Assembly (NCBI GenBank): GCA_018268465.1
Contig: JAFDWN010000051.1
Span: forward strand, 116,223-180,222
DNA from: Actinomycetota bacterium
GTDB lineage: Bacteria > Actinomycetota > Actinomycetes > Mycobacteriales > Mycobacteriaceae
Direction: 5' to 3'
Length of the DNA stretch: 64,000 nucleotides
Made by a program: the position numbers and the translations under genes. Under the pieces are notes generated by a model that had not been told where the DNA came from, made no database searches, and saw nothing but the letters and a program-made list of their open reading frames with translations. Below are positions 40,058 through 60,249 of this stretch, piece after piece (the stretch's first letter is position 1; each line of letters opens with the position of its first letter).

Positions 40058-41203
40058 TCAGCGGCCGGCGTAGGCCTTGGCCACCCGGCTGACGAACTGG
40101 TACACGCCGTCCTCGTCGGGAGCCAGCGGTCCCGGCCGCGCGTGCGGTGAACTCAGCCCGCGCTGCACCGACTCGCACGCCGCCCAGTCCTGCCGATTGG
40201 TCAGATCCCAGAAGTCGACCGCGTAGGACGGATCGAAATCATCTTTGGCGGCAACGTCTTTGGGGAATGCCCAGGCGCATTCGACATGCGTGCGGTCGAC
40301 GCCCAGCGGCGTCATGAGATGCGTCATCACGTAGTCGGGGTGCAGGCTCACCAACAGGTTCGGATAGCCGACCAGGTACATGACGCTGCGCAACTCGTGT
40401 TCGGACAGACCCTGGATCGCCACCCCGCCGCTCTTGCCGCTCAGCGACATGGTCTCGGCGCCGTCGATGATCGACATCCAGCCACCCATCCAGGAACCTT
40501 CGAATTCGAGGTTCTCACCGCTGGTCGGCGGGCTGATGCGGGTCAGTTCGGGGTGGATGCTCGAACAGTGGTAGCACTCCTGGTAGTTCTCGGCGATGAC
40601 CTTCCAGTTGGTGGCCAGTTCGTAGGAGTGCCGGGCGACGATGGTCAGATCTTCTGGGCGGTAGGGCCCCACGACCTCCTCGAGCCCCGCAACGTGTTCG
40701 CCGAACTCGACGTCGGTTCCGCTGGGGTCGACGAAAAGCCAACCGTGCCAGTCGACGAGGCGCAGTTCGGCCAGGCCGAATTCGCCGGGATCGAAGTCGT
40801 CGGCGTCGCGGAATCCCGGCGCGTTGCGCAGCGTGCCGTCGAGCCGGTAGGACCACGAGTGGTAGGGGCAGACGATGCTGCGGCCCTTGGCGGCCGCCCC
40901 GCAGGCCAACAGTTCGTGGCCGCGGTGCCGGCAGCTGTTGGCGAAGGCCCGGATCCGGTCCTCGGCGCGGACCAGCAGGATGCCGTTGGGGCCGGAGCCG
41001 ATCGCGCGCTGGGCGCCGACGGTGCCGAGGTCGCCGGCGTGGCCAACGCAGGTCCAGCCGGAGAAGATGTTGCGCTGCTCCCAGGCGAACACCTCGGGGT
41101 CGACGTACGCCTCGCGCGGCAGCATCCGGGACTGTCCGAAGGGTGCCAGCGCCGCGGCGAGGTCGCCGGCGGGGACCGGCGCGGGACCATCTTGATTGAC
41201 CAT
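40058..41203 (-). CDS. Rieske non-heme iron oxygenase, choline/betaine monooxygenase-like
   Basis: A 381-residue oxygenase subunit. The Rieske cluster uses Cys91-x-His93 (CRHRGH) and Cys112-x2-His115 (CPYHSW). The catalytic domain has ENYQECYHCSSIHPE with His212 and His217; this ENYxECYHC form marks choline, glycine-betaine and carnitine oxygenases (CMO, GbcA, CntA) that hydroxylate N-methylated amines. No reductase subunit is encoded nearby. ATG 41203 follows a TATCCT box by six bases (leaderless), and a predicted TetR operator covers this start. The frame continues upstream through a repeat but is not part of the gene. Confidence 0.93.
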   Translation of the reverse strand: MVNQDGPAPVPAGDLAAALAPFGQSRMLPREAYVDPEVFAWEQRNIFSGWTCVGHAGDLGTVGAQRAIGSGPNGILLVRAEDRIRAFANSCRHRGHELLACGAAAKGRSIVCPYHSWSYRLDGTLRNAPGFRDADDFDPGEFGLAELRLVDWHGWLFVDPSGTDVEFGEHVAGLEEVVGPYRPEDLTIVARHSYELATNWKVIAENYQECYHCSSIHPELTRISPPTSGENLEFEGSWMGGWMSIIDGAETMSLSGKSGGVAIQGLSEHELRSVMYLVGYPNLLVSLHPDYVMTHLMTPLGVDRTHVECAWAFPKDVAAKDDFDPSYAVDFWDLTNRQDWAACESVQRGLSSPHARPGPLAPDEDGVYQFVSRVAKAYAGR

Positions 41204-41216
41204 ACAGTCAGGATAC
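41192..41216 (-). promoter_or_regulatory. Promoter and TetR operator D at the Rieske gene
   Basis: On the minus strand TATCCT (41215-41210) is six bases from ATG 41203. The 20-bp imperfect palindrome 41192-41211 reads TTGATTGA-CCAT-ACAGTCAG on the plus strand, the weakest of four related sites. It spans from the -10 end across the start codon, so a bound repressor would block transcription directly. Confidence 0.55.
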
Positions 41217-41247
41217 TGCCCCGGGGGGCCGCTGGTCCAGCGCTCGC

Positions 41248-41356
41248 CGCGATGCCCTGCTCGCCGCGAGCGTGCGCGCGACGCCCTGCTCGGCGCGACG
41301 CCCTGCTCGGCGCGACACCCTGCTCGCCGCGACGCCCTGCTCGGCGCGAGCGTGCG
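41248..41356. repeat. 17-bp tandem repeat array
   Basis: Four contiguous 17-bp units of CGCGACGCCCTGCTCGG (41277-41344), with one to three changes each, follow a further degenerate unit at 41248-41264. A 12-bp block CGCGAGCGTGCG separates them (41265-41276) and closes the array (41345-41356); its inverse lies at 41395-41406. This lies in the 223-bp gap between the Rieske and permease genes. Confidence 0.75.
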
Positions 41357-41422
41357 CATACTCGGCAGATCGGTCGGCGTGGCGCCCGCAGACACGCACG
41401 CTCGCGGGAGGAAGAAGGGGGG
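41345..41422 (-). repeat. Dispersed inverted-repeat element, copy B
   Basis: CGCGAGCGTGCG (41345-41356) and CGCACGCTCGCG (41395-41406) are perfect 12-bp inverted arms 50 bp apart; then comes a GGAGGAAGAAGGGGGG run ending next to the stop codon of the permease gene at 41427. The element aligns with 20199-20272 over its whole length without gaps between the arms. Confidence 0.7.
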
Positions 41423-41426
41423 CTGG

Positions 41427-42326
41427 CTAGACCTCGCCCGCGAACGCGCCGATGCCGCGATCCTTCGTGGTGGTGTCGCCGCGCGTCAACCGCCGGAACA
41501 CCAGGAATCCGATCACGATCGCCGTCAGCGCCGCGAGCAGCAGCAGGGTCGCCAGCGCGTTGAGGGCGGGCGTCGGCGCCGCGCGTGCCGTGTTGTAGAT
41601 CTTCACCGACACCGGTTCCGTCGACGCGTCGCCCGATAGGTAGCGCACCAGCACGAAATCATCGATCACGTCCGCGAATACGAGCACGGTACTGGCGAAG
41701 ATCGCCGGCATGAGCATCGGCAGGGTGACCCGGCGCAGCGCGCCCAGCGGTGAGGCGCCCAGATCCTGCGCGGCTTCCTCGTACTGCGGGCCGATGGTGG
41801 CCAGCCTGGCGCGTACCAGTACGGCAGGGTAGGCGACTTGGAAGGTCACCAACCCGATCACCTGCGCGGTGGTGCCGAGGGTCACCGGCAGGGTCAGCGA
41901 CGTGACGACGAACAGCAGCGAGACCGCGAGCAGAACCTCGGGGATCACGAACGAGATCAGCATGAGCAGGTTGGCGCCTGCGGGTATCCGCCCGCGCCAC
42001 CGGTCGATACCGATGGCGAACAGCACCCCGAGCGGGACGGTGACCAGGGTGGTGATCACACCGAGCTTGAGCGTCTGCAGCAGTGCGGTGTGCAACGAGG
42101 CGTCATGCCACACCGACCGGGTCGGATCACCCCAGTACCAGCGGAACGAGAAGCCCTGCCAGTGGGTGCGCGACCGTCCGTCGTTGAACGAGAACATCAC
42201 CGCGATCAGCACCGGCAGCAGCGACCACACCAGGTAGGCCAGGGTGACGCCGACGAGGATCCGCGGCGGCCGCCACGGATCGTTCCACCATGCGATGGGA
42301 CCCCGGATCCGGACCTGCCGTGTCAC
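41427..42326 (-). CDS. PotC-like ABC importer permease
   Basis: A 299-residue permease with six helices and the EAA loop EEAAQDLGASPLGALRRVTLP (residues about 190-210) that meets the ATPase. The N-terminal LVWSLLPVLIAVMFSFNDG and C-terminal layout match the PotC/PotI half of polyamine-type importers. GTG 42326 overlaps the stop of the partner permease as GTGA. It is followed by an inverted-repeat element that may end the transcript before the Rieske gene. Confidence 0.92.
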   Translation of the reverse strand: MTRQVRIRGPIAWWNDPWRPPRILVGVTLAYLVWSLLPVLIAVMFSFNDGRSRTHWQGFSFRWYWGDPTRSVWHDASLHTALLQTLKLGVITTLVTVPLGVLFAIGIDRWRGRIPAGANLLMLISFVIPEVLLAVSLLFVVTSLTLPVTLGTTAQVIGLVTFQVAYPAVLVRARLATIGPQYEEAAQDLGASPLGALRRVTLPMLMPAIFASTVLVFADVIDDFVLVRYLSGDASTEPVSVKIYNTARAAPTPALNALATLLLLAALTAIVIGFLVFRRLTRGDTTTKDRGIGAFAGEV

Positions 42327-43270
42327 ACCTTCACCTCGTCGCCCCGCGACACGACGCGGACGTAGTAGAACATCGGGAGCACGGTCACGATGAGCACCAG
42401 CATGACGAAGGCGCCTGCCTGTCCGGCCTGACCGGGTGACTGGACGCTGTTGTTGATCAGGTTGCCGACGATCGCCGTGGTCGGCGACGCCGACAGCAGG
42501 TCGCCGGTGAAGTAGTCGCCCAGCATGGGCAGACACGTCAGCAGCACCGCGGCCACGATGGTCGGCCGGCACATCGGCAGTGTCACCCGCCAGAACGAGG
42601 CGAACCGGTTGGCGCCCAGGTCACGTGCTGCCTCGAGGGTCGACTGCGGCAGCCGGTCGAGCCCCGCGTACAGGGGCAGGATCATGTACGGCACGTAGCC
42701 GTACACCAGGCCCAGGATCACCACCACCGGCTGGCCGGTCAGCCAGTTGACGTTCACCTCGAACAGGCCGCCGAGGCGCAGCACTCGGTTGACCAGACCG
42801 TCGTCCTGCAGCAGGTTGACCCACGCCAGCATGCGCATCATGTAGCTGATCCAGAACGGCGCGATGAGCAGCACCAGCAGCAGGCCCCGCCACCGTCCCG
42901 ACAACCGGGCCACGTAGTAGGCCACGGGGAAGGCGATGAGCAGACACAGGACACTGGCGGCCAGTACGAACACGACGGTGCGCAGCAGTGCGGGCCCGTA
43001 CACGCCGTTCGGCCCGACGATGTGGGTCAGGACGTAGTTGAACTGAGACGGATTCCACTGCAACGGGTTCCACACCGGCACCGGGGTGCGGAAGATGGGG
43101 TCGACGTACCCGAAGACGATGGCAAGGACCACGTACAGCGGGGCGAGGACGAACAACACCAGCCACGCGATGCCGGGTGCGGCGAGCGCGGGCCAGATCA
43201 GCCTGGTGCGTTGTCTGGGTGGTTTGCGGTCGGTGACCGGCTGCGGTGTGACGGGAGGTGCCGCGGTCAA
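42323..43270 (-). CDS. PotB-like ABC importer permease
   Basis: A 315-residue permease with six helices. Its EAA motif is EAARDLGANRFASFWRVTLP, and FLIAPFWISYMMRMLAWVNLL-like segment AFWISYMMR places it with PotB/PotH. It starts with TTG 43270, two bases after the binding-protein stop; GGAGG about ten bases upstream supports this rare start. With PotC, the lipoprotein and the ATPase at 46044 it completes an importer. Confidence 0.9.
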   Translation of the reverse strand: MTAAPPVTPQPVTDRKPPRQRTRLIWPALAAPGIAWLVLFVLAPLYVVLAIVFGYVDPIFRTPVPVWNPLQWNPSQFNYVLTHIVGPNGVYGPALLRTVVFVLAASVLCLLIAFPVAYYVARLSGRWRGLLLVLLIAPFWISYMMRMLAWVNLLQDDGLVNRVLRLGGLFEVNVNWLTGQPVVVILGLVYGYVPYMILPLYAGLDRLPQSTLEAARDLGANRFASFWRVTLPMCRPTIVAAVLLTCLPMLGDYFTGDLLSASPTTAIVGNLINNSVQSPGQAGQAGAFVMLVLIVTVLPMFYYVRVVSRGDEVKV

Positions 43271-43272
43271 AC

Positions 43273-44550
43273 TCAGGAGCCCCCTCCGGCCTTGAAGGAG
43301 TTCCAGATGTTCTGCCAGGCCTGGTCATTAGCGGCGTCGAGCTCCAGAATGCGGTACCCGACATCGAAGTACTCCGGGCGCACCGCCGCCGATTTGAGGT
43401 TCTCCGGGATGAAGCCCTCGGCGACCAGTGTGTCGGGGTTGAGCGAATTCTGCGGTGGCTGGTACCCGATCGCGGTGAAGTTCTGTTTGGCCACTTCCGG
43501 ATCGAGCATGTGGTTGATGAACAGGTGCGACAGCACCGGATTCTTGCCCGCTCGGATGGAGACGATCAGGTCGTTGTCCACCAGGCCCTTGCCGTCGGAG
43601 GGGAACCAGTACCGCAGGATGTCCGGTGAGGCGCCGTCGGGCAGGTACGACACGGCGTTGACGATGTCGCCCGACCACATCTGGGAGAGCCCGATCTGGC
43701 CGGCCGGCAGGTCGTTGTACATCGTGATGGTGACCTTCGGCGAGGTGGCGGCCACCATCTCGTTCAGTGCCGTGCCGACCTTCTGCAGGTCGGCTTCCGA
43801 GGATGTGTTCACATCGGTGATGCCAAGGCGCAGCAGCACCATCGACATCGCGGTGTGCCAGTCGTCGATGATCGCCGTCTTACCCTTGTAGATCGGATCC
43901 CACAGTGCGTCATAGGGATTGGCGCGCGCGCCGATATCCTCTTTCACCTGGTCGGTACGCCAGCCCAGGCCGGTCGTGTACACGGTGTACGGCACCGAGT
44001 AGCGCCACTCCTTGTCGTACCAGGGGTCGGAGAAGAACGGCCAGATGTTGCTGATGTTGGGGACGTAGCTGTGGTTGAGGGGGCGGATCAGCCCGCCGGT
44101 GACCAGTCGGCTGATCTGGTCGTAGCTCGGGAAGTAGAGGTCGTAGTTCACGTTGCCGCCGAGGATCTTCGTCATCGCCTCGGTGGTGTCGTTGAACGTC
44201 GAGATCTGGACCTTCGTCTTGTACATGTCCTCGAAGGATTTGATCGCATCGGGGCTGAGATAGTCGGCGTAGGTGTAGACCTGCAGTGTCGCGCCCTGTT
44301 CGGGGGCGAGTCCGTCGGCGATCGGTTTGTTGTCCTCGGCGATGTCCCAGGTGACCGGGCTGTCCGGGGAAGCCAGTTTGAGGGTGGGCGCCGAGGACGG
44401 CGGTGCCGCGCTGGAGCAGGCTTGCAGGAACGCGCCGAGGGTCGGCACCGTTGCAGTCAGAAGTGCTGCGCGAGTGAGGAACTGGCGTCGGGTGGAACTC
44501 ATGTGCGGCCAGTCCGGCCTGCCTCGGAAGGGGTCGTTGGGTACTGGCAT
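43273..44550 (-). CDS. PotD-like substrate-binding lipoprotein with Tat signal
   Basis: A 425-residue periplasmic-binding protein of the spermidine/putrescine type (SBP_bac_8). The N terminus has a twin-arginine signal (STRRQFLTRAALL) ending in lipobox LQAC, so it is exported folded and lipid-anchored. Binding-domain landmarks are YTYADYLSPDAI, YDLYFPSYDQISRL, YTVYTTGLGWR and WSGDIVNA. ATG 44550 has GGGAGG seven bases upstream; ATG 44598 lies in the operator and is rejected. The ligand could be a polyamine or another cationic amine. Confidence 0.92.
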   Translation of the reverse strand: MPVPNDPFRGRPDWPHMSSTRRQFLTRAALLTATVPTLGAFLQACSSAAPPSSAPTLKLASPDSPVTWDIAEDNKPIADGLAPEQGATLQVYTYADYLSPDAIKSFEDMYKTKVQISTFNDTTEAMTKILGGNVNYDLYFPSYDQISRLVTGGLIRPLNHSYVPNISNIWPFFSDPWYDKEWRYSVPYTVYTTGLGWRTDQVKEDIGARANPYDALWDPIYKGKTAIIDDWHTAMSMVLLRLGITDVNTSSEADLQKVGTALNEMVAATSPKVTITMYNDLPAGQIGLSQMWSGDIVNAVSYLPDGASPDILRYWFPSDGKGLVDNDLIVSIRAGKNPVLSHLFINHMLDPEVAKQNFTAIGYQPPQNSLNPDTLVAEGFIPENLKSAAVRPEYFDVGYRILELDAANDQAWQNIWNSFKAGGGS

Positions 44551-44573
44551 CTTGACCTCCCAGCTCAGGCACC

Positions 44574-44617
44574 TTGTCACTGCTATCGACTCTCGCATAG
44601 ACTGAATGCTCAGTCAA
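44574..44617 (+). promoter_or_regulatory. Aminotransferase promoter with TetR operator A
   Basis: TTGTCA (44574-44579) and TAGACT (44598-44603) are 18 bp apart. The operator TAGACTGA-ATGC-TCAGTCAA (44598-44617) overlaps the -10 box and the start of transcription; the inner arms GACTGA/TCAGTC are perfect complements. The opposite strand serves the binding-protein operon, so one site can control both directions. Confidence 0.65.
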
Positions 44618-44641
44618 CCGTTCGTAAACGGAGGTTCAACT

Positions 44642-46030
44642 GTGTCTTCGTCGGTGGCGGAAAGCCCCGCGGCCAGCTCTCAATCCGGTGTCATCAGTGG
44701 TCTGATCGCCGCTGAGGAACAGGTGTTCCTGCGTCGCCAGCCGCGCAGTACCGAACTCATCGCGCTGGCCTCCGAACACCTTGCCGGTGGCGCCACGTCC
44801 AACTGGCAGATCGCCCAGCCGCAGGCGGTGTGGATGAGTCACGGCGCGGGGTCGAAGGTGTACGACGTCGACGGCACCGAGTACGTCGACATGCACGGCG
44901 GCTACGGCGCTTCCATTGCGGGACATGCTCATCCGGCGATCGTCGAGGCCGTCAGCGACCGGGTTCGGCGCGGCACCCACTTCGCCCAGCCGACCGAGGA
45001 CGCCATCTGGATCGCCGGGGAGCTGTCCCGCCGGTTCGGTCTGCCGCTGTGGCGGTTCGCCAACTCGGGCACCGAGGCCACCATGGACGCCGTCCACCTG
45101 GCGCGCTCGCTGACCGGTCGCGACCTCATCATCAAGGTCGAGGGGTGCTATCACGGTCACCACGACTCGGTGCAGGTGTCGGTGCTGCCCGAGGCCGACG
45201 AGATCGGGCCGCGGGAGCACCCCACCGGCGTCCCCGGTAACAGCGGAATCCCCTCGGCGATCCGCGATCTGGTGATCGTGGTGCCGTTCAACGACCCGGA
45301 GGCGGTGGCTCGGGCGCTGGCCGAGCACCCGGGCCGGGTGGCCGCGATGATCCTCGAACCGGTGATGATGAACGCGGGCATCATCCCGCCCGCCGACGGC
45401 TACCTGGCCGCGGTGCGCGAACTCGTACACGAAGCGGGCGCGCTGCTCATCTACGACGAGGTGAAGACCGGGTTCACCACCGGCCCGGGCGGCATCACCG
45501 CACGCTCGGGTGTGGTGCCCGACATGGTGTGTCTGGCCAAGGCACTGGGCGGTGGGATCGCCGTGGCCGCCATCGGCGGGACGACGGCGGTGATGTCGGC
45601 CATCGCCGACGGCCGCTACGAGCAGGTCGGCACCTTCAACGGCAACCCGCTGGCGATGGCCGCCACCCGCGCGACCCTCACCGACGTGCTCACCCCGCAG
45701 GCGTACGCCCATCTCGACGAGCTTGCCACCTCGCTGCGCGGTGCGCTGGAGGAAACCATCGCCAGGCACGGATTCGACTGGCACGTCGTCAGCGTCGGCG
45801 CGAAGGGCTGCGTCACCTTCCGCCGCGAGCGGGTCCGCGAGTTCCGTGATTTCCTGGAGATCGACGCCCGATTGGGGCATCTGCACTGGCTGATGCAGCA
45901 CAATGGCGGTGTATTCCTCCCGCCCTGGGGGAAGGTGGAGCAATGGTTGTTGTCGGTTCAGCACGACCGCGACGATGTCGCGAGATTCGCCGCCAATTTC
46001 GCCCGGTTCGCGGCGGCGGTCGCACCCTGA
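44642..46030 (+). CDS. Class III aminotransferase, glutamate-1-semialdehyde aminomutase-like
   Basis: A 462-residue PLP enzyme with cofactor Lys300 in VCLAKALGGG, phosphate-binding NSGTEATMDAVHLAR, GCYHGHHDS and IYDEVKTGF. The form is close to GSA aminomutase but a biosynthetic HemL is unlikely in this catabolic setting; it probably moves an amino group from an omega-amine or a short amino acid. GTG 44642 has CGGAGG eight bases upstream. Operator A lies 25 bp before it, and the importer ATPase gene follows after 13 bp. Confidence 0.9.
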   Translation: MSSSVAESPAASSQSGVISGLIAAEEQVFLRRQPRSTELIALASEHLAGGATSNWQIAQPQAVWMSHGAGSKVYDVDGTEYVDMHGGYGASIAGHAHPAIVEAVSDRVRRGTHFAQPTEDAIWIAGELSRRFGLPLWRFANSGTEATMDAVHLARSLTGRDLIIKVEGCYHGHHDSVQVSVLPEADEIGPREHPTGVPGNSGIPSAIRDLVIVVPFNDPEAVARALAEHPGRVAAMILEPVMMNAGIIPPADGYLAAVRELVHEAGALLIYDEVKTGFTTGPGGITARSGVVPDMVCLAKALGGGIAVAAIGGTTAVMSAIADGRYEQVGTFNGNPLAMAATRATLTDVLTPQAYAHLDELATSLRGALEETIARHGFDWHVVSVGAKGCVTFRRERVREFRDFLEIDARLGHLHWLMQHNGGVFLPPWGKVEQWLLSVQHDRDDVARFAANFARFAAAVAP

Positions 46031-46043
46031 TCGGTCGGCCCCG

Positions 46044-47208
<1,165 letters not shown>

Positions 47209-47231
<23 letters not shown>

Positions 47232-47868
47232 GCACCGGCCGGATGGGGGTGAGGTTCAGCTCGCGTTCGGCGAACCGCATTGCGATGTCGTAGGCGACGT
47301 CGGCGTCGACCTCCGGATCCTCCAGCGCCACCTGAATCGACAAGCCGTCCAGCAGCGCGGCGAATTCCAGCGCGAACATCCGCGGGTCGACGTCGGTGTC
47401 GAATTCGGCGGTCTCCTTGCCGGATCGGACGGCGTCGACGATCATCTTGCGCCACCGGGCGTCCAATTCGACGCGGCCCGCTTTGACCTCGCTGTGCCGG
47501 AAGGCCTGGGCCCACAGGTCGAACCACAGGCCCCAGGCGCCGGGGATGTCGTTTACGCCGTCGCCGTCGGGCACGCAGGTCCACTTGATGAGCAGCGAGA
47601 GCCGCTCACGCAGCGACGGCACCTCGGCCAGCATCTTCTCGGCGGCCTCGTAGAACGATTCCTCCGAATAGCGCAACGCGTCCACGAGCAGGCGGTCGCG
47701 GGTGCCGAAGTAGTAGATGACCAGCGCCGAACTCACGCCGGCCCGCTTGGCGACATCGGCGATGCGGGTGTCGCCGAAACCGAGTTCGCAGATGAGCTCC
47801 GCTGCGGCGCGCAGCATTTCGACGCGGCGACCTTCGTTGTTCTCCGTCGCGGGCGCGGGCTCGGCCAT
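47209..47868 (-). CDS. TetR-family regulator, BetI-like
   Basis: A 219-residue repressor. The N-terminal DNA-binding domain has IADVAKRAGVSSALVIYYFG (about 36-55), the helix-turn-helix of TetR. The ligand domain with LWFDLWAQAFRH recalls BetI, the choline-responsive repressor. It is divergent from the FAD oxidoreductase, and a 20-bp palindrome lies in the gap between them. Three copies of that palindrome occur at other genes of the cluster, so this protein is the best candidate to bind all four. Confidence 0.93.
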
Positions 47869-47903
47869 ATGCGGTGTTCCCCCTCCAAGTGCATCGTTGC
47901 CAC

Positions 47904-47946
47904 TTGTCTGTAGCCTAACACTTCGTTAGATTGAACAGTCAGTCAA
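47904..47946 (+). promoter_or_regulatory. FAD-oxidoreductase promoter with TetR operator B
   Basis: TTGTCT (47904-47909) and TAGATT (47927-47932) are 17 bp apart. The operator TAGATTGA-ACAG-TCAGTCAA (47927-47946) covers the -10 box and start site, the same geometry as operators A and C. It also lies upstream of the tetR gene, which would give autoregulation. Confidence 0.65.
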
Positions 47947-47981
47947 TACATTTGCGCGCTCGGGCGAAAGTGGGTCCCTCG

Positions 47982-49634: not shown

Positions 49635-49643
49635 ACCTCGCCG

Positions 49644-51698: not shown

Positions 51699-52745
51699 TC
51701 CGGCGAACGCCAGCTCGGCGGCGCCGATCATCAGCGTCTGCGAGCCGAGGCTGGCAGGGACGATCCGGACGAGGTCATGCGGTGCGCGCATGCTGTGCCT
51801 GGCTACGGCGTCGCCGAGTACCGCAGGGGCGCGCGCGGGGAACTCGGCCAAAAATCCGCCCAGCACGATCAATTCGGGGTTGAGCATGTTGACGGCGTTG
51901 CCCAGCGCGATGCCCAGGTACTGCGCCTGTCGGTCGAGATCGCCGCGGTCGCGCCGGACCTCGGTCTCCAGGCACCCGATCCGCCCGCAGTGACATGCGC
52001 CGGCGCCGCCGACGAAGGTGTGTCCGAGTTCGCCCGCATAACCTGCCGCACCTTCGAGCAGTTGGCCGGCGACGACGAAGCCGGCGCCGATACCGCTTGC
52101 GCCGCCGTTGACGTAGATCATGTGGTGGGCGTTGACGTGGTTGCCGAAGAGGTGTTCGGCGACGGCGCCGGTGTTCGCGTCGTTGGCCGCGAAGACCGGC
52201 AATTCCGTAGCGGCACTGAGCATCCGGCCGATCTCCTCGTCGTGCCAGTTCAGATTCGGGGCGAGGGAGACCATGGATCCCGGTGCGTGCACCAGACCGG
52301 GCACGGCGACGCCGACGGCCATGACCGACTGGCCGGGGTCCAGCGCGTCGCGGATCCCCGCGATGGCCTCCGCGGCGATGGCGACGGCCTGGGCCGCGGT
52401 CGGGACGGTGCCGGTGGCCCGGCGCACGACACGCAGCACCCGCCCGCCCAGAGCCACCACGCCGACTGTGATGGCGTCGTTCTCGGGGTTGACCGCGACC
52501 GCCAGCATGCGTGTCTGGGGCCGCACGATCGGGCTGGGCCTGCCGACCTGCGTGCTGGCCGGGACCGATTCCTCGACGAGGCCGCCCGCGGTGAGTTCTT
52601 CCACCAGGTCCTTGATCGTCGACCGCGACAGCCCGGTGCGGCGGGTGAGTTCGGCGCGGCTCAAGGCGCGCTGGCGATGGACGAGCGTCAGGACGACCGA
52701 CAGGTTGCGGCGGCGGACGTCGTCGGTGCTGGTCCCGATCCTCAC
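51636..52745 (-). CDS. ROK-family transcriptional repressor (sugar cluster, first)
   Basis: A 369-residue NagC/XylR-type regulator: an N-terminal winged helix ([20 protein letters not shown], about 28-47) and a sugar-kinase-like domain with the zinc motif [10 protein letters not shown] and [11 protein letters not shown] 52745 is preferred, with AAGGAG four bases upstream; ATG 52775 lies in the operator. It is divergent from xylA and should respond to a sugar, likely xylose or a relative. The TGTTC-N7-GAACA palindrome before xylA is its likely site. Confidence 0.92.
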
Positions 52746-52779
52746 ATTGCTCCTTGACAGTGGCTCACGACACATCTTA

Positions 52780-52796
52780 TGTTCGGGTCCTGAACA
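52780..52796. promoter_or_regulatory. ROK operator X1 upstream of xylA
   Basis: TGTTC (52780-52784) and GAACA (52792-52796) are perfect inverted arms around seven bases; flanks TAT and AAATC match those of the second site at 54100-54116. Confidence 0.55.
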
Positions 52797-52818
52797 AATC
52801 CACCCTCAGGAGCTTGAT

Positions 52819-54054
52819 ATGTCCGTCCTCACGTCCACCCATCCGGCAGCCGACCAGGCAGGCGAAGCGCTGGTCCCCAAGCCGTCGGACAAATTCTCGT
52901 TCGGCCTGTGGACCATCGGCTGGACAGCCAACGACCCGTTCGGGGTGGCCACGCGGCCGGCGCTGGATGTGGTCGAAGCCGTCGAACGGCTGGCCGCGCT
53001 CGGCGCGTACGGCCTGACCTTCCACGACGACGACCTGTTTCCCTTCGGCAGTTCCGACGAGGACCGCCGGCGGGCCGTCGGCAGGCTGAGTTCGGCATTG
53101 CAGTCCACCGGCATGGTCGTACCGATGGTCACCACCAACCTGTTCACCCATCCCGTCTTCAAGGACGGCGGATTCACCAGCAATGATCGCGCCGTGCGGC
53201 GCTTCGCGCTGCGCAAGGTGCTGCGCAACATGGATCTGGCCGCAGAACTGGGTGCGGAGACGTTCGTGCTGTGGGGCGGGCGCGAAGGCAGCGAATACGA
53301 CAGCGCCAAGGATGTGCGCGCGGCGTTCGCACGCTACAAAGAGGCCCTCGACCTGCTGTGCCAGTACGCCCTCGACCAGAAGTACGCGCTGCGGTTCGCC
53401 ATCGAGCCCAAACCCAACGAACCGCGTGGCGATATCCTGCTGCCCACCGTGGGACACGCGATGGCGTTCATCGACACCCTCGAGCACCCCGAACTCGTCG
53501 GCGTCAACCCGGAGACCGGCCACGAGCAGATGGCGGGGCTGAACTTCATGCACGGCATCAGCCAGGCGCTCTACAGCGGCAAGCTGTTCCACATCGACCT
53601 CAACGGCCAGCGGGGCATCAAATTCGACCAGGATCTGGTGTTCGGCCACGGCGACCTCGCCAATGCGTTCGCACTGGTCGACCTGCTCGAGAACGGCGGA
53701 CCCGACGGTGGTCCGGCCTACCAGGGCCCGCGGCACTTCGACTACAAGCCCAGCCGCACCGAGGACGCCACCGGGGTGTGGGAGTCGGCGGCGGCCAATA
53801 TGCGGATGTATCTGTTGCTCAAGGAGCGGGCCGCGGCCTTCCGTGCCGACCCCGAGGTGGCCGAGGCGCTGCAGACGGCGCGGGTGGCCGAACTGCGGCA
53901 GCCCACCCTCAACGCCGGCGAAACCTACGGGGATTTGCTCGCCGACCGGTCGGCGTATGAGGATTTCGACCCCGATTCGTACTTCGGCGCAAAGGGATTC
54001 GGCTTCGTCCGGCTCAACCAACTGGCGCTGGAGCATCTGATGGGCGCCCGGTGA
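52819..54054 (+). CDS. xylA: Xylose isomerase
   Basis: A 411-residue actinobacterial-type xylose isomerase with [17 protein letters not shown] near the start, [10 protein letters not shown] carrying the ring-opening His, [26 protein letters not shown] with metal-binding Glu, [11 protein letters not shown] and [16 protein letters not shown]. It converts D-xylose to D-xylulose (and glucose to fructose). CAGGAG precedes ATG 52819; the open frame upstream is a shadow. No xylulokinase is in this window, so the kinase must be elsewhere. Confidence 0.93.
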
Positions 54055-54079
54055 CACGCGTTCTACCAAACCTCTGGAC

Positions 54080-54093
54080 GTGACACGCGTCAC
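54080..54093. promoter_or_regulatory. CRP-like site upstream of the sugar transporter
   Basis: GTGA-CACGCG-TCAC is a perfect palindrome matching the core of mycobacterial CRP sites (TGTGA-N6-TCACA) except for the outermost bases. It lies 46 bp before the binding-protein gene, next to operator X2. Confidence 0.5.
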
Positions 54094-54099
54094 GCTATA

Positions 54100-54116
54100 T
54101 GTTGTCCGAAACAACA
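54100..54116. promoter_or_regulatory. ROK operator X2 upstream of the sugar-binding protein gene
   Basis: TGTTGT (54100-54105) and ACAACA (54111-54116) are perfect inverted arms around five bases. Overall form (TATGTT, seven-base core, AACAAAT) is shared with X1. Confidence 0.55.
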
Positions 54117-54138
54117 AATGTGGAGAAAGGCGATCTCT

Positions 54139-55221
54139 ATGAAGCGGATGAGCGGGCTGGTGTTCGCCGTGGTGGTCGGCGCGAGCGTTGCCCTCACGGC
54201 CTGCGGTGGAAGCGACGGCGGTGGCGGCACCGGCGGCGGTGACTCGGCGCAGAGCGGCAAGATCGGTGTCATCCTGCCCGACACCAAGTCGTCGGTGCGC
54301 TGGGAATCCAAGGACCGCCCCGAACTGGAAGCCGCGTTCAAGGCGGCCGGCGTGCAGTACACGATCCAGAACGCCGAGGGTTCCGCGGACAATATGGCCA
54401 CCATCGCCGACGGCATGATCGCCGACGGTGTCACCGTGCTCGCCATCGTCAACCTCGACTCCGACAGCGGCGCGTCGATCCAGCAGAAGGCGGCCAGCCA
54501 GGGCGTCAAGACGATCGACTACGACCGGCTGACCCTGGGCGGTTCGGCCGACGTCTACGTCTCCTTCGACAACACCAAGGTCGGCGAACTGCAGGGCCAG
54601 GGACTGGTCGACTGCCTGGCCGGCAAGCCGTCGAACGTGGTGTTCCTCAACGGATCCCCCACCGACAACAACGCGACCCTGTTCACCGCCGGCGCGAAGT
54701 CGGTGGTCGACAAGACCCCGTCCATCACCATCGTCGGCGAGCAGGCCGTGCCCGACTGGGACAACGACAAGGCCGTCACGATCTTCGAGCAGCTCTACAC
54801 CGCCGCCGACGGCAAGGTCGACGGTGTCTACGCCGCCAACGACGGCCTCGCAGGTTCGGTCATCTCGATCCTGGAGAAGAACGGGCGCGCCGGTCAGGTG
54901 CCGGTGACCGGTCAGGACGCCACGGTCGAGGGTCTGCAGAACATCCTCGCGGGCACCCAGTGCATGACCGTCTACAAGTCGGCCAAGGAAGAAGCCGGGG
55001 CGCTGGCCAAGGCCGCGATCGCACTGGCCAACGGCGAACAGCCCGAGACCAACGGCACCACCCGCGACGACCAGGGCAACCGCGACGTGCCTTCGGTGCT
55101 GCTGACCCCCAAGTCCATCACCAAGGACAACGTCGACGTGGTGTTCAACGACGGCGGCCAGTCCAAGGACGACGTCTGCACCGGGCAGTTCGCCGCCGCG
55201 TGCAGCGCCGCGGGCCTGTAG
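54139..55221 (+). CDS. Sugar-binding lipoprotein of an ABC importer
   Basis: A 360-residue family-4 periplasmic-binding protein (ribose/xylose type). Signal peptide with lipobox LTAC (Cys20), a Gly/Ser-rich linker, then GKIGVILPDTKSSVRWESKDRP, AIVNLDSDSGASIQQKA, VFLNGSPTDNNA and VYAANDGLAGSVISIL, the family's ligand and hinge segments. It resembles XylF/ChvE proteins. ATG 54139 has GGAGAAAGG upstream. It starts a four-gene run that ends with the second ROK gene. Confidence 0.93.
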   Translation: MKRMSGLVFAVVVGASVALTACGGSDGGGGTGGGDSAQSGKIGVILPDTKSSVRWESKDRPELEAAFKAAGVQYTIQNAEGSADNMATIADGMIADGVTVLAIVNLDSDSGASIQQKAASQGVKTIDYDRLTLGGSADVYVSFDNTKVGELQGQGLVDCLAGKPSNVVFLNGSPTDNNATLFTAGAKSVVDKTPSITIVGEQAVPDWDNDKAVTIFEQLYTAADGKVDGVYAANDGLAGSVISILEKNGRAGQVPVTGQDATVEGLQNILAGTQCMTVYKSAKEEAGALAKAAIALANGEQPETNGTTRDDQGNRDVPSVLLTPKSITKDNVDVVFNDGGQSKDDVCTGQFAAACSAAGL

Positions 55222-55237
55222 CGCGAAGGTGACGAGT

Positions 55238-56014
55238 ATGACCGAGCCCATCCTCGAATTGCGGGGCGTCAACAAGAGTTTCGGCGTCGTCCACGTCCTG
55301 CACGACGTCGACTTCCAGGTCTACCCCGGAGAGGTCACCGCACTCGTCGGCGACAACGGTGCCGGTAAGTCGACGCTGGTCAAGGCGATCGCCGGGATCT
55401 ACCCGATCGACACCGGGACCTACCTGTTCGAGGGCAAGCCGGTCACCGTCCACGGACCCAACGATGTTGCGGGCCTTGGCATCGAGGTCGTCTACCAGGA
55501 CCTGGCCCTGTGCGACAACCTCGACATCGTGCAGAACATGTTCCTCGGCCGCGAACTCAAACGGCACGGCACCCTCGACGAGGCCCGGATGGAGTCGATG
55601 GCCAAGGAGGCCCTGACGTCACTGTCGGTGCGCACCGTCAAATCGGTGCGCACCCCGGTGGCCAGCCTGTCCGGCGGCCAGCGCCAGACCGTGGCGATCG
55701 CCAAGTCGGTGCTGTGGAACTCCAAGGTGGTGCTGCTCGACGAGCCCACCGCCGCGCTCGGCGTGGCCCAGACCCGCCAGGTGCTCGACCTGGTGCGCCG
55801 CCTGGCCGACCAGGGCCTGGGTGTGGTCTTCATCTCGCACAACATGGTCGACGTCTTCGAGGTCGCCGACCGGGTGTGCGCGCTGTACCTGGGCAGGGTG
55901 GCCGCGGAGGTCAAGGCCTCCGAGGTCACCCACAGCCAGATCGTCGAACTGATCACCGCCGGCCGGTCCGGCAGCCTGGGCCTCGCGCCCGCCGAAGCCG
56001 CCCAGTCGATGTAG
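55238..56014 (+). CDS. Sugar ABC importer ATP-binding protein, single domain
   Basis: A 258-residue ATPase with Walker A GDNGAGKST, signature LSGGQRQ, Walker B VVLLDEP and FISHNMVDVFEVADR. It belongs to the RbsA/XylG group but has only one ABC domain instead of the usual two (about 500 residues); such single-domain forms, as in FrcA, are known. ATG 55238 is preferred over GTG 55229, with GAAGG upstream. It sits between the binding protein and the permease. Confidence 0.92.
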   Translation: MTEPILELRGVNKSFGVVHVLHDVDFQVYPGEVTALVGDNGAGKSTLVKAIAGIYPIDTGTYLFEGKPVTVHGPNDVAGLGIEVVYQDLALCDNLDIVQNMFLGRELKRHGTLDEARMESMAKEALTSLSVRTVKSVRTPVASLSGGQRQTVAIAKSVLWNSKVVLLDEPTAALGVAQTRQVLDLVRRLADQGLGVVFISHNMVDVFEVADRVCALYLGRVAAEVKASEVTHSQIVELITAGRSGSLGLAPAEAAQSM

Positions 56015-56024
56015 AGGAAGCGAT

Positions 56025-57317
56025 ATGACCAGTTCCGAAGCCGCACCCGGCGCGGCTGCCGTGAAACCCAAACTGGCCGACTCCGATTTCGCCGCCGACG
56101 CGCGCAGCGACGAGACCTTCCTCGACGCCATGCGCAGCTACGGCCAGCGGGTCCGCGGTGGCGACATGGGTTCACTGCCGGCGGTTCTCGGCCTGATCGT
56201 GCTGTTCGTCGTGTTCGGGCTTGCCAACAGCAGGTTCACCTCGGCGCTCAACCTGGCCAACCTCGTCACCCAGGCCGGCGCGATCTGCGTCCTCGCGATG
56301 GGTCTGGTGTTCGTGCTGCTGCTCGGCGACATCGACCTGTCCGCCGGTGTGGCGGGCGGGGTGTCGGCATGCGTGATGGCGCTGACCATGGTCAACCAGG
56401 GCTGGCCGTGGTGGGCCGGGATCCTGATCGGCGTCGCGTGCGGCGCGCTGATCGGCCTGGCGATCGGCGTGCTCTGCGCGAAACTCGGCATCCCGTCGTT
56501 CGTCGTGACCCTCGCCTTCTTCCTGGGCCTGCAGGGTGTGACGCTCAAGCTGATCGGTGAGGGCGGTTCGGTGCGGGTCGACGACCCGGTGATCCGCGGG
56601 CTGACCATCTCCAATCTCTCGGTGAGCACCGGCTGGATCCTGGCAGTGCTCATCGCGGCCGGGTACGCGGGGCTGGAACTTTACCGGCATCGGTCGAAAG
56701 TGACGCTGGGACTGTCCCATTCACCGTTCGGGGTGGTGGCCGCGCGGATCGCCGCGGTGGCCGTCGTCACCCTCGGGGTCACCTACCTGATGAACCTCAA
56801 CCGCAGCGTCAACCCGAACATCGAGATCCGCGGCATCCCCTACGTGCTGCCGGTCGTCGGCCTGCTGCTCATCGTGCTGACCTTCGTGCTCAACCGGACC
56901 TCCTACGGCAGGCACATCTACGCGGTGGGCGGCAACCGGGAGGCGGCGCGCCGCGCGGGTATCCCCGTGGCCCGCATCCGGATCTCGGTGTTCGTCGTAT
57001 GCTCGTCGCTGGCCGCGCTGAGCGGCATCATCGCCGCCTCCTACGGCGGAAAGGTGTCGGCGTCCTCCGGTGCCGGGAACACGTTGCTCTACGCGGTCGG
57101 CGCCGCGGTGATCGGCGGGACCAGCCTGTTCGGCGGCAGGGGACGCGCACTGGACGCCGTCATCGGCGGCGTGGTGGTGGCGACCATCGCCAACGGGCTC
57201 GGCCTGCTCAACCAGTCGTCCTACATCAACTTCCTGGTCACCGGCGGGGTGCTGCTGCTGGCGGCGAGCGTGGACGCGATCTCCCGCAGGCGCCGCTCCG
57301 CGGCCGGGCTGAGCTGA
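56025..57317 (+). CDS. Sugar ABC importer permease
   Basis: A 430-residue permease of the ribose/xylose/arabinose type (BPD_transp_2) with 10-11 helices from residue 50 on and an unusual N-terminal tail of about 45 polar residues. The family core is in LVFVLLLGDIDLSAGVAGG, and the C-terminal GKVSASSGAGNTLLYAVGAAVIGGTSLFGG is the typical XylH/RbsC signature. It pairs with the preceding ATPase and binding protein. Ten bases separate it from the second ROK gene. Confidence 0.93.
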   Translation: MTSSEAAPGAAAVKPKLADSDFAADARSDETFLDAMRSYGQRVRGGDMGSLPAVLGLIVLFVVFGLANSRFTSALNLANLVTQAGAICVLAMGLVFVLLLGDIDLSAGVAGGVSACVMALTMVNQGWPWWAGILIGVACGALIGLAIGVLCAKLGIPSFVVTLAFFLGLQGVTLKLIGEGGSVRVDDPVIRGLTISNLSVSTGWILAVLIAAGYAGLELYRHRSKVTLGLSHSPFGVVAARIAAVAVVTLGVTYLMNLNRSVNPNIEIRGIPYVLPVVGLLLIVLTFVLNRTSYGRHIYAVGGNREAARRAGIPVARIRISVFVVCSSLAALSGIIAASYGGKVSASSGAGNTLLYAVGAAVIGGTSLFGGRGRALDAVIGGVVVATIANGLGLLNQSSYINFLVTGGVLLLAASVDAISRRRRSAAGLS

Positions 57318-57327
57318 GTCGTCGCTT

Positions 57328-58542
57328 GTGCCTGCCCGGACCACCCGCTCGGGAGCCAACCAGGAGAGTGTCCGCAGGCACAACCTGAGCACGCTGCTGC
57401 GGCATCTGCACCTGTCCGGCCGTTCGTCGAGATCGTCGCTGACCACCCTGATGGGTCTGAACCGCAGCACCATCGCCGACCTCGTCGTCGAACTCGAACT
57501 GCTCGGACTCGTCGCGCAGCAGAAGCCGGACACCCGGGGCCGGGCGGCCGGACGGCCCTCGGTGCGCGTGGTCGCCACCGACCACGCCTACGTGCTCGCC
57601 ATCGACGTGCGGGTCGCCGAACTCGTCGTGGCGCGGGTCGGACTCGGCGGCACGGTGCTGTCGTCGATCACCGCACCGTGTCCGCGAGACCATCAGCCGC
57701 TGGCCACCGTCGAGGAGATCGCCCGGCTCGCCAGGACCGTCATGCGCGACGCCGATCCCACATCCGTGCTTGTCGGCGTGGGGGTCAGCGTGCCGGGAAT
57801 CATCGCCAGGGACAGCGGAATCGTCCGTCTGGCACCCAATCTCGATTGGCGCGACGTCCCGCTCGACGATCTGCTGACCGCCGCGCTGGACACCGCGCCG
57901 CGTCCGGTCCTCGGCAACGACGCCGACCACGGCGCGCTCGCCGAACACCTGCGCGGGGTGGGCAGGGGGGTCGACGACCTGGTCTACATCTCCGGGGAGG
58001 TCGGGGTCGGAGCCGGGCTCATCGCCGGCGGGCGGCCCGTGACCGGCGCGTCGGGATTCGCCGGGGAGATCGGCCACCTACCGTTCGGCGACGGAACACG
58101 CCGGTGCCACTGCGGTTCCCGCGGATGCTGGGAAACCGAGATCGGCGCGGTGGCGCTGGCCGACGCGGTCGGCTGCCCGTCCGACCGGATCACCGACCTC
58201 AGCGGGTATCTCGGTGAATTGGATTCGGCGCCTGCGGAACTGGAGGCGGTCGCCCGGCATCTCGGGCGCGGGCTGGCGGGTTTGGTGAATCTGCTCAACC
58301 CGCAGATGATCGTGTTGGGCGGGTATCTGCGCGCGCTCTACCGCTGGCTGGAGCCCGGCGTCCTCGCCGAACTGGAGGTCCGCGCGCTTCCGGTGGCCGG
58401 GTTGCGGCCCCGCATCGTGCTGCCCGGGCTGGGTGATCAATCGGTGCTGATCGGCGCCGCCGAGGTGGCCTTCCGCGGGCTGCTCGACGACCCCGTCGGA
58501 TGCCTGCCCGGGGCACACCGCACCGCCGACCTCGTCGGCTGA
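57328..58542 (+). CDS. ROK-family transcriptional regulator (sugar cluster, second)
   Basis: A 404-residue ROK regulator: winged helix with SRSSLTTLMGLNRSTIADLV (about 33-52), sugar-kinase-like domain with GFAGEIGH and the zinc motif CHCGSRGCWE. It is the last gene of the transporter run, so it is likely made with the transporter and controls it. It is only distantly similar to the first ROK protein, with a longer N terminus (SGANQESVRRHN). Two regulators for one sugar unit is unusual; they may respond to different sugars. Confidence 0.93.
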   Translation: MPARTTRSGANQESVRRHNLSTLLRHLHLSGRSSRSSLTTLMGLNRSTIADLVVELELLGLVAQQKPDTRGRAAGRPSVRVVATDHAYVLAIDVRVAELVVARVGLGGTVLSSITAPCPRDHQPLATVEEIARLARTVMRDADPTSVLVGVGVSVPGIIARDSGIVRLAPNLDWRDVPLDDLLTAALDTAPRPVLGNDADHGALAEHLRGVGRGVDDLVYISGEVGVGAGLIAGGRPVTGASGFAGEIGHLPFGDGTRRCHCGSRGCWETEIGAVALADAVGCPSDRITDLSGYLGELDSAPAELEAVARHLGRGLAGLVNLLNPQMIVLGGYLRALYRWLEPGVLAELEVRALPVAGLRPRIVLPGLGDQSVLIGAAEVAFRGLLDDPVGCLPGAHRTADLVG

Positions 58543-58566
58543 CCCGCCCGTCTCATCGCAGGCGAA

Positions 58567-58614
58567 TGTGAACTGGCTGCGAGGTTTTCGCGAATATCTC
58601 GCAGCCAGTTCACA
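58567..58614. terminator. Long perfect hairpin between convergent genes
   Basis: Arms TGTGAACTGGCTGCGAG (58567-58583) and its complement (58598-58614) form a perfect 17-bp stem with a 14-base loop, midway between the ROK stop (58542) and the cupin stop (58627). There is no U tract. A bidirectional terminator is likely; its length and conservation of arms also suit a dispersed mycobacterial element. Confidence 0.65.
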
Positions 58615-58626
58615 CTCGGCGACGGC

Positions 58627-58962
58627 CTAGAAGATCGAGTAGACCTTGCGGACCGTTTCGTGGATATCCCACGTGCCGGTCCAGCCCTTCGGGAATACCG
58701 CGGTGTCACCCGTCGCGACCTCGGCTGGTTCGCCGCCGTCGGGGGTCACGGTCATCCGGCCCGCCACGAGGTAGATCACCTCGTTGGTCTCCAGCGTCCA
58801 GCGCGACGGACCCGGCTCGCACTGCCAGATTCCCGCCGACCTCTCGCCGTCCGCCCAGACCTCAACGCCGTGGGTGGCCATCGGGTGTCCGGTCGCCTCG
58901 TCCAGCGGACCCCAGTCCTCGAGTTCCGCGTCGACGGCTCCGGCGAGAACGGGTGTGATCAC
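58627..58962 (-). CDS. DUF861-like cupin protein
   Basis: A 111-residue single cupin barrel of the DUF861/EutQ-like group: IWQCEPGPSRWTLETNEVIYLVAGRMTV holds the first cupin motif with Glu, and GDTAVFPKGWTGTWDIHE the second. The usual first His pair is not evident, so metal binding is doubtful. Such proteins are often found beside amine oxidases. GTG 58962 overlaps the DAO stop as GTGA, so the two are made together. Confidence 0.85.
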   Translation of the reverse strand: MITPVLAGAVDAELEDWGPLDEATGHPMATHGVEVWADGERSAGIWQCEPGPSRWTLETNEVIYLVAGRMTVTPDGGEPAEVATGDTAVFPKGWTGTWDIHETVRKVYSIF

Positions 58963-60185
58963 CTGGCGATCCTTTCGGTTGTTTCTCTCACAACGCTTTC
59001 CGGGAACGGAAGCGAGATCGGTTCGGGCGCCAGGCGGCTGTTGCCGTCGGCGTCGAAGCGGTCCAGACCGAGGTCGGTCAGGTCGAGCCAGTCGCAGCGG
59101 CCCGCGGTGGTCAGGTCGGCGGCGACCTCGGCCACCGCGGGACCCCACATCATGCCGTGGCCCGCGGCGCTGGCCACTACGGTGCCGTCGACGGGGCCGT
59201 CGCCGGTCAGCAGCGGTCCGAGGATCGGCAGGTGGTCGGGGGTGTAGTCGATGGTGGCCGCCCAGGTGCGCCGCAGGCCGAGCCCGGCGACCGCGGGGAA
59301 CAGCTCCTCGATGCGGTCGCGCGCCTTGCGGTAGTAGGCCGTGTCGAAGTCGACGGCCACTCCCGGCGGTTCGTCGGGATTGCTCATACCCCACAGCACG
59401 CCGCCGGATTCGCCTGGCCGCCAATAGATTCCGGAGGTGATGTCGAAGACCATCGGCAGGGTGTAGACGTCGAGGTCGCGCAGGCGCTCGGTGACCACCA
59501 CCTGGTGGCGGGTCCCGCCGGCGGGGATCCGCGCGCCCGCCGTCGCGCCCACGTCGGCGAGCTGCGGCCCGCCCGTCAGCACCACCCGCTCGGTGTCGAT
59601 CGGACCCGCGGACGTATCCACGCCGACCACCCGGCCGCCCGAGGTGCGCAGACCGGTGAAGGCGCAGCGTTCGCGGACGTCGACGCCCCGCGCGGTGAGC
59701 GCGGCGGTGTAGGCGAGCACGTTGCGGGGGGCGTCGATGTAGCCGTCGCCGGGCGCGTACGAGGCGCCCAGCGTCGCACCCGGGGCGATGCCGGTGACCC
59801 TGTCGTCGATGTCGCCGCCGGATAGCCACTCGACGTCGAGACCGATGCTGCGCTGCAGGGCGATCCGATCGTGGGCCTGTGCCACTTCGGCTTCGGAGAA
59901 GCACGGCATCAGATAGCCCTGCGCCACGAAGCCGCAGTCGAGCGGGAAGCGCTCACCGCTGGCGCGGTAGAAGTCCTGGGCGCGCAGGCCGAGGCGGATG
60001 GCGGTCTCCGTGCCGCCCTGGGCGCGCACCATCCCCGCCGCCCGGCTGCTGGCGCCCTCGCCCAGGGTGGCGGCCTCGAGCAGGACGACATGGGGCACAC
60101 CGCTTTCGGCGAGCAGGACGGCCGTCCACGCACCGACCGTTCCGCCGCCCACGACAACGACATCGGCATTGTGGGAGCTGGTCAT
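58959..60185 (-). CDS. FAD-dependent amine/amino-acid oxidase (DAO family)
   Basis: A protein of about 408 residues with the FAD loop DVVVVGGGTVGAWTAVLLAE near the start, ASSRAAGMVRAQGG, and the C-terminal DYTPDHLPILGP and AAGHGMMWGPA of DAO proteins (sarcosine, glycine or gamma-glutamylputrescine oxidase type). It probably oxidises a secondary amine. ATG 60185 or 60203 starts it; neither has a ribosome site. Operator C lies directly upstream and is shared with the divergent acyl-CoA dehydrogenase. The cupin gene follows with overlap. Confidence 0.9.
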   Translation of the reverse strand: MTSSHNADVVVVGGGTVGAWTAVLLAESGVPHVVLLEAATLGEGASSRAAGMVRAQGGTETAIRLGLRAQDFYRASGERFPLDCGFVAQGYLMPCFSEAEVAQAHDRIALQRSIGLDVEWLSGGDIDDRVTGIAPGATLGASYAPGDGYIDAPRNVLAYTAALTARGVDVRERCAFTGLRTSGGRVVGVDTSAGPIDTERVVLTGGPQLADVGATAGARIPAGGTRHQVVVTERLRDLDVYTLPMVFDITSGIYWRPGESGGVLWGMSNPDEPPGVAVDFDTAYYRKARDRIEELFPAVAGLGLRRTWAATIDYTPDHLPILGPLLTGDGPVDGTVVASAAGHGMMWGPAVAEVAADLTTAGRCDWLDLTDLGLDRFDADGNSRLAPEPISLPFPESVVRETTERIAR

Positions 60186-60222
60186 AGTATGGAACGCTGA
60201 CATAGACTGAACAATCAGTCAA
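60179..60222 (+). promoter_or_regulatory. Acyl-CoA dehydrogenase promoter with TetR operator C
   Basis: TGGTCA (60179-60184) and TAGACT (60203-60208) are 18 bp apart. The operator TAGACTGA-ACAA-TCAGTCAA (60203-60222) differs from operator A only in the spacer and overlaps the -10 box in the same way. It lies between the divergent oxidase and dehydrogenase genes. Confidence 0.65.
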
Positions 60223-60249
60223 GTGGTCGGGCGAGGATTGGGGTGCCGG

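Follow-up and report, generated by a model that had tools for sequence, protein, structure and literature searches.

Genes and palindromes of the locus

The window considered here, a stretch of 64,000 nucleotides from a Mycobacteriaceae assembly (contig JAFDWN010000051.1), contains a cluster of predicted catabolic genes, a gene for a TetR-family regulator (tetR, 47209-47868, minus strand) and four 20-bp palindromes, which we regard as putative operators of this regulator. The minus strand first carries the genes for a Group V-like Rieske oxygenase (40058-41203), a PotC-like ABC permease (41427-42305, start not fixed), a PotB-like ABC permease (42323-43270) and a PotD/PotF-like substrate-binding protein (SBP, 43273-44502). 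Next, on the plus strand, are a class III (HemL-like) aminotransferase gene (44642-46030) and a PotA-like ABC ATPase gene (46044-47231). Beyond tetR, whose product has a BetI-type C-terminal domain and is the proposed repressor, come a CrtO/phytoene-desaturase-like FAD oxidoreductase (FAD oxidase, 47982-49634, start not fixed) and an ADP-forming acyl-CoA synthetase (CoA ligase, 49644-51698), both on the plus strand. After a block of sugar genes, the cluster resumes with an EutQ-like Cupin_3 cupin (58627-58962) and a DAO-family FAD oxidase resembling sarcosine and glycine oxidases (DAO, 58959-60185), both on the minus strand, and an acyl-CoA dehydrogenase (ACAD, 60250-61425, plus strand, with its start at 60223, 60243 or 60250).

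Three of the palindromes match without any mismatch: TAGACTGAATGCTCAGTCAA at 44598-44617 (operator 2, between the leftward importer genes and the rightward aminotransferase gene), TAGATTGAACAGTCAGTCAA at 47927-47946 (operator 3, between leftward tetR and the rightward FAD oxidase gene) and TAGACTGAACAATCAGTCAA at 60203-60222 (operator 4, between the leftward DAO and the rightward ACAD genes). The remaining one, TTGATTGACCATACAGTCAG at 41192-41211 (operator 1, minus strand, covering the Rieske start, which is leaderless), has three mismatches. The initial annotation, which described four matching palindromes, this one being the weaker, proved exact on re-reading in all coordinates and letters; operator 1 is indeed weak by sequence.

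With up to three mismatches, there are seven matches in the window (both strands counted), against a mean of 0.04 in the shuffled window. Across the 6.88-Mb genome to which the window belongs (the own genome), TNGAYTGANNNNTCARTCNA is matched exactly at the three strong sites and nowhere else, and the reversed control has no match; few other matches had been expected from a genome-wide scan, and this is what we observe. When TTGACTGA-N4-TCAGTCAA is allowed up to three mismatches, this genome contains eight places, including the four of the window, versus nine in the reversed control, so that the fourth site is not distinctive by sequence alone. The core pattern TGAYTGANNNNTCARTCA was tried and rejected: since AGAYTGA is what the strong sites have as left arm, it missed all three of them, and it picked up other palindromes instead (among them one beside a distant TetR paralog on contig C42 of the own genome and one in G041). 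GC-rich repeats (cgcgacgccctgctcgg...) at 41260-41350 separate operator 1 from the permease gene.

Distribution of the sites and of the regulator

Within the genus, 198 genomes were compared, and 39 of them contain an ortholog of the TetR protein (at least 71% identity, E 5e-49 or better); the other TetR matches listed have E values of 1e-27 or worse, with 26-37% identity for the long ones and up to 46% for short N-terminal ones. We fetched 37 neighbourhoods, corresponding to all orthologs outside the own genome except that of G070, which entered a wider scan as locus L103. To locate genes, we kept for each gene in a locus its single best tblastn hit, with a minimum identity of 45% for gene order and for the counts at junctions, flanks and promoters, and of 38% in wider-locus scans; for distances between sites and gene starts, hits of at least 55% were used. 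The gene order of the cluster, from the Rieske gene through the permeases, SBP, aminotransferase, PotA and tetR, and on through FAD oxidase, CoA ligase, the sugar genes where present, cupin and DAO to ACAD, was found in 33 of the 37 neighbourhoods, as far as each stretch reaches; for L041 and L058, the Rieske gene is at or past the stretch edge, where the ortholog search places it.

Conserved sites had been anticipated in related genomes, and they are found at the matching junctions (all counts include the window). In a region scan, a site that matches 13-14 of 14 positions is present at the SBP/aminotransferase junction of all 34 loci, and one that matches 12-13 of 14 at the tetR/FAD oxidase junction of 34 out of 35. 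The sole miss there, L038, in which FAD oxidase, PotA and ACAD are remnants, has its site 58 bp before tetR. At the DAO/ACAD junction all 14 positions match in 20/20 loci, and the site is present in 11/11 further loci. The mean majority fraction is 0.97-0.99 within the sites versus 0.45-0.81 in their flanks (the flank profile of tetR/FAD oxidase leaves out L038).

The motif TAGAYTGANNNNTCAGTCAR has 107 matches in 38 of the 198 genomes and none in the reversed control, and every one of the 107 is located at most 260 bp from the start of an SBP, aminotransferase, tetR, FAD oxidase, DAO or ACAD gene. It is present in 36 of the 39 genomes with the TetR versus 2 of the 159 without it, and in the latter two (G111 and G126), which are incompletely assembled, short contigs carry cluster genes. 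Likewise, a Rieske ortholog (at least 80% identity) occurs in 34 of the 39 TetR-positive genomes and in the same two of the 159; it is missing from G004, G054, G070, G136 and G166, and G145 has a 73-residue Rieske fragment of 88% identity. Four of the genomes lacking a Rieske ortholog are natural cases of cluster loss. G054 (locus L038) has retained tetR together with its site, and G136 (L071) has kept tetR with a site carrying one mismatch. In G004 (L073), the TetR match consists of two pieces in different frames, and this split tetR is accompanied by a decayed site, whereas G166 (L072) has tetR but no site.

One may ask whether the sites are occupied by some other regulator, be it a paralog of the TetR or a global factor, the neighbouring TetR having another target. 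The own genome does contain TetR paralogs (28-36% identical among those listed), one of them, of BetI type, beside a related palindrome on C42, and G166 has retained the TetR without any site. Nevertheless, we find this very unlikely: the motif tracks this particular TetR across the 198 genomes, it stays in front of TetR genes whose neighbourhood has lost the cluster, and the sites of the paralogs differ in their outer bases (TGAYTGA instead of TAGAYTGA). Two distant paralogs adjoin the related palindrome TGAYTGA-N4-TCARTCA. In the own genome, TGACTGATGTATCAGTCA (C42:19539-19556, L168) is located at the start of an MFS gene adjoining a TetR_C_16 regulator, and TGATTGATGCGTCAATCA (C42:23757-23774, L168) between an amidohydrolase gene and the BetI-type paralog; these two palindromes are probably sites of other TetR proteins. 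Palindromes of the form TGAYTGA-N4-TCARTCA also occur in pairs, 2.2 kb apart, in two genomes without this TetR (G117:C1:4356236/4358450 and G071:C6:269453/271653), where they are perhaps the sites of another regulator.

The association extends beyond the genus set. Scanning named genomes yielded 72 loci, many of which belong to genomes already among the 198. Where the TetR is at least 78% identical, a site matching 13-14 of 14 positions precedes tetR in 54/54 loci, and where it is 51-63% identical (Nocardioides, Gordonia and related assemblies) a good site does so in 14/17; one further locus, L162, had no TetR match in this wider scan. When seven of the eight distant genomes (all except that of L144) were searched whole with at most one mismatch, all 18 places found were at cluster genes, with two in the reversed control. 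The sites also travel with genes that have moved: in G428 the importer/aminotransferase block, now 16 kb from tetR, has retained TAGATTGAATACTCAGTCAA; in G429 the DAO gene, on a different contig, carries CAGACTGAACGTTCAGTCAA; and in L153 a new potA/Rieske junction has a site (12 of 14).

From the sites, their location and conservation, and their co-occurrence with the TetR, we infer that the protein encoded at 47209-47868 very probably acts on these palindromes. Its persistence beside a site in G054 and G136, without a Rieske ortholog, and the sites carried along by displaced genes are in agreement with the original proposal of a TetR regulon. As a class, such a system would be ordinary. A well-conserved TetR regulon with sharply defined operators is strongly supported by these comparisons.

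Promoters overlapped by the palindromes

The -35 hexamers previously assigned to the strong sites are all present, TTGTCA at 44574-44579 (spacer 18), TTGTCT at 47904-47909 (spacer 17) and TGGTCA at 60179-60184 (spacer 18). Each strong palindrome combines a rightward -10 in its left arm with a leftward -35-like hexamer in its right arm; in operator 2, for instance, these are TAGACT and TTGACT, with GAGAGT 17 bp further. Within the genus, 88 strong sites were scanned, and TAGAYT, the rightward -10, makes up the left arm of all of them; this accounts for the imperfection of the palindrome at position 2. In some distant loci the left arm deviates (TAAACT in L146, TCGATT and CCGACT in L154, TGGACT in L161). 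The right arm reads TTGACT on the other strand, or CTGACT if the last base of the site is G. The hexamer 17 bp on has A at position 2 and T at position 6 in, respectively, 33 and 33 of 34 loci for the SBP gene, 32 and 30 of 34 for tetR, and 20 and 20 of 20 for DAO. For tetR itself, the -10 is probably TAGGCT at 47917-47912, a better hexamer than the one 17 bp on; TAGGCT is kept in G004, nearer the site, and becomes TAGGTT in G136.

Since the palindromes overlap -10 and -35-like hexamers, one could imagine that they are promoter or structural elements alone, conserved without any regulator. We consider this hardly credible, as their two-fold symmetry exceeds what promoters need, their exact matches are restricted to this cluster, and G136 has kept the site in front of tetR although the first T of the rightward -10 is gone (CAGATT). 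Because each strong palindrome holds both a rightward -10 and a leftward -35-like hexamer, a TetR bound to one 20-bp site could shut both directions. A few TetR-family proteins activate transcription, and this one might occupy the same sites mainly as an activator; that seems highly improbable, since three of the sites cover the rightward -10 and the fourth covers a start codon, which is where proteins that repress by steric hindrance typically bind. Repression remains our preferred interpretation, and the TetR would control a catabolic regulon comprising the polyamine-type importer, the Group V-like Rieske enzyme, the aminotransferase, both flavin oxidases, the CoA ligase, the cupin, the ACAD and tetR itself.

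The fourth site requires separate discussion. The initial annotation placed it over a leaderless start, and indeed the -10 TATCCT (41215-41210) is followed after 6 nt by the Rieske ATG (41203-41201, minus strand). In 30/30 loci, the Rieske start consists of a TANNCT -10, 6-7 nt, and an ATG inside the site. It could be argued that this is not an operator and that its conservation merely reflects a promoter joined to coding sequence, the more so since by sequence the site does no better than chance within the own genome and matches only 9-11 of 14 positions in relatives. We think this rather unlikely: the noncoding half-site, GACTGT or GACTGC, is found between the -10 and the ATG in all 30 loci, and near-ideal versions with the ATG inside, TTGATTGAACATGCAGTCAA and TTGATTGAACATACAGTCAA, exist in two Nocardioides loci (L144 and L146). 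If operator 1 is genuine, the TetR would there occupy the interval that separates the -10 from the first codons of this leaderless mRNA.

Several observations weigh against this picture of one repressor acting at all these sites. The TetR of G166 (L072), 71% identical and without a Rieske ortholog in its genome, has no site in front. Among the distant loci, L150, L161 (9 of 14) and L159 (11 of 14) lack a good site before tetR, and of the 11 that have a Rieske gene, 9 show a weak match at its start (8-11 of 14), L144 and L146 being the other two. The first codons of the Rieske gene are coding, so that half of operator 1 does not count as independent evidence. The leftward -10s of the importer and DAO genes are poor hexamers (GAGAGT and CAGCGT), and TAGGCT is the likelier -10 of tetR, whose -35-like arm reads CTGACT in roughly half of the loci. 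Finally, no reductase partner for the Rieske enzyme was seen among the scanned cluster genes.

Nature of the regulator, possible substrate and limits of the proposed regulon

The regulator belongs to the TetR family by its helix-turn-helix (PF00440, 39.7 bits, cut-off 24), which is more conserved than the rest of the protein (91% versus 80%, and 74% versus 52% in the distant set); by sequence, its gene also has beside it a palindrome overlapping promoters, as is characteristic of TetR repressors. It had been called BetI-like, and this holds for the C-terminal domain; it is not BetI, scoring 78.2 bits against the BetI equivalog TIGR03384 (cut-off 201.3), and no choline oxidation gene (choline or betaine-aldehyde dehydrogenase) is found among the scanned cluster genes. 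With BetI, a choline-responsive TetR repressor, it thus shares the TetR_N and BetI-type C-terminal domains and, presumably, the control of quaternary-amine genes, but the target genes differ. The FadR model of NCBIfam gives 34.8 bits over the helix-turn-helix end, below its cut-off of 200; the operators of Bacillus FadR and related TetR repressors have a similar TGA-type palindromic layout, with different target genes. In the PDB, it best matches TetR regulators to which no function has been given (including 4ich and 4kwa), and named structures (FadR-like, RutR, AmtR and others) score lower.

All four importer components match the models of the PotABCD/PotFGHI polyamine importers, but all stay below the equivalog cut-offs; the ATPase alone reaches that of the PotA subfamily (TIGR01187, 399 bits, cut-off 355.6). 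For the Rieske oxygenase the best-scoring solved structures include the demethylases 3vca/4qup, 3n0q and the carnitine monooxygenase CntA, the first of which (demethylase or dioxygenase in the entries) we take to be the stachydrine demethylase Stc2. The bridging Glu and the Cys-X-X-Cys of its ECYHC motif align with those of CntA and 3vca/4qup, and in this respect the cluster enzyme resembles the Group V oxygenases (to which Stc2, CntA and GbcA belong). According to PMC10952381, some Group V (quaternary-amine) enzymes carry this signature at the mononuclear iron site. Its presence here suggests a quaternary amine as predicted substrate. The enzyme cannot be equated with GbcA, the glycine betaine monooxygenase, because it scores 188.2 bits against a model cut-off of 670. 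Based on the enzyme classes of the cluster, there is about an even chance that it breaks down a betaine or an N-methylated amino acid, the CoA ligase and ACAD oxidising the acid left over; no hint of the substrate came from the genes adjoining three Nocardioides loci. The inducer would be a ligand of the pathway that releases the TetR, and a betaine or an N-methylated amine is the most likely candidate.

The claim of one regulon over 20 kb has to be restricted. It does not hold for the 7 kb at 51636-58542, encoding a ROK regulator, a xylose isomerase (TIGR02631, 664 bits), a sugar ABC transporter and a second ROK protein. No operator-like sequence occurs there at up to three mismatches, and this cassette, present between CoA ligase and cupin in the window and 12 fetched relatives, is lacking in 20 of the 33 loci that are informative (L045 stops at a contig end and is uninformative). 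As a facultative insertion without any site, these sugar genes are rejected as members, and the 20 kb are not a single regulon. A search for further members at up to two mismatches in 16 chosen genomes (12 with the TetR, 4 without) gave scattered matches away from the cluster, whose number did not reach that of the reversed control; TAGATTGANCCRTCCGGCAA, which recurs in G098, G009 and G172, was dropped because it is located inside reading frames.

Among the papers listed by literature searches, none dealt with this cluster or motif, as judged by titles and abstract openings. We tentatively propose, as a view slightly more apt to fail than to hold in all its parts, that the cluster is an undescribed betaine/N-methyl-amino-acid regulon of environmental mycobacteria and Nocardioides, with its own TetR, two-way promoter-operators and a start-codon operator of a leaderless oxygenase, and that it may reach, via a half-conserved site, a second operon on contig C30. 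An unassigned catabolic pathway would gain a regulator, exact putative operators and defined target genes, and with these in hand substrate and inducer become directly testable. An operator fused with two promoters, and kept so from Mycobacterium to Nocardioides, is also a clean natural case of the evolution of a repressor site and promoters under joint constraint.

On C30 of the own genome, an intergenic sequence with two mismatches, TTGACTGACTGATCAGACCA (C30:175806-175825, L187:11807), precedes by 32 bp a family-5 binding-protein gene. The operon that follows encodes a second ABC importer and ends in a Rieske paralog (C30:168908-169954, 39-42% identical). In the same operon of G144, G033 and G194 only the half-site GTCAGTCAA is kept, and in that of G041 no such site was found; the C30 site could correspond to cross-regulation or to a sister regulator. 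In the window itself, two tandem M28 peptidases with PA domains are encoded at 37086-40054, and many of the fetched loci have relatives of the second one adjoining the cluster.

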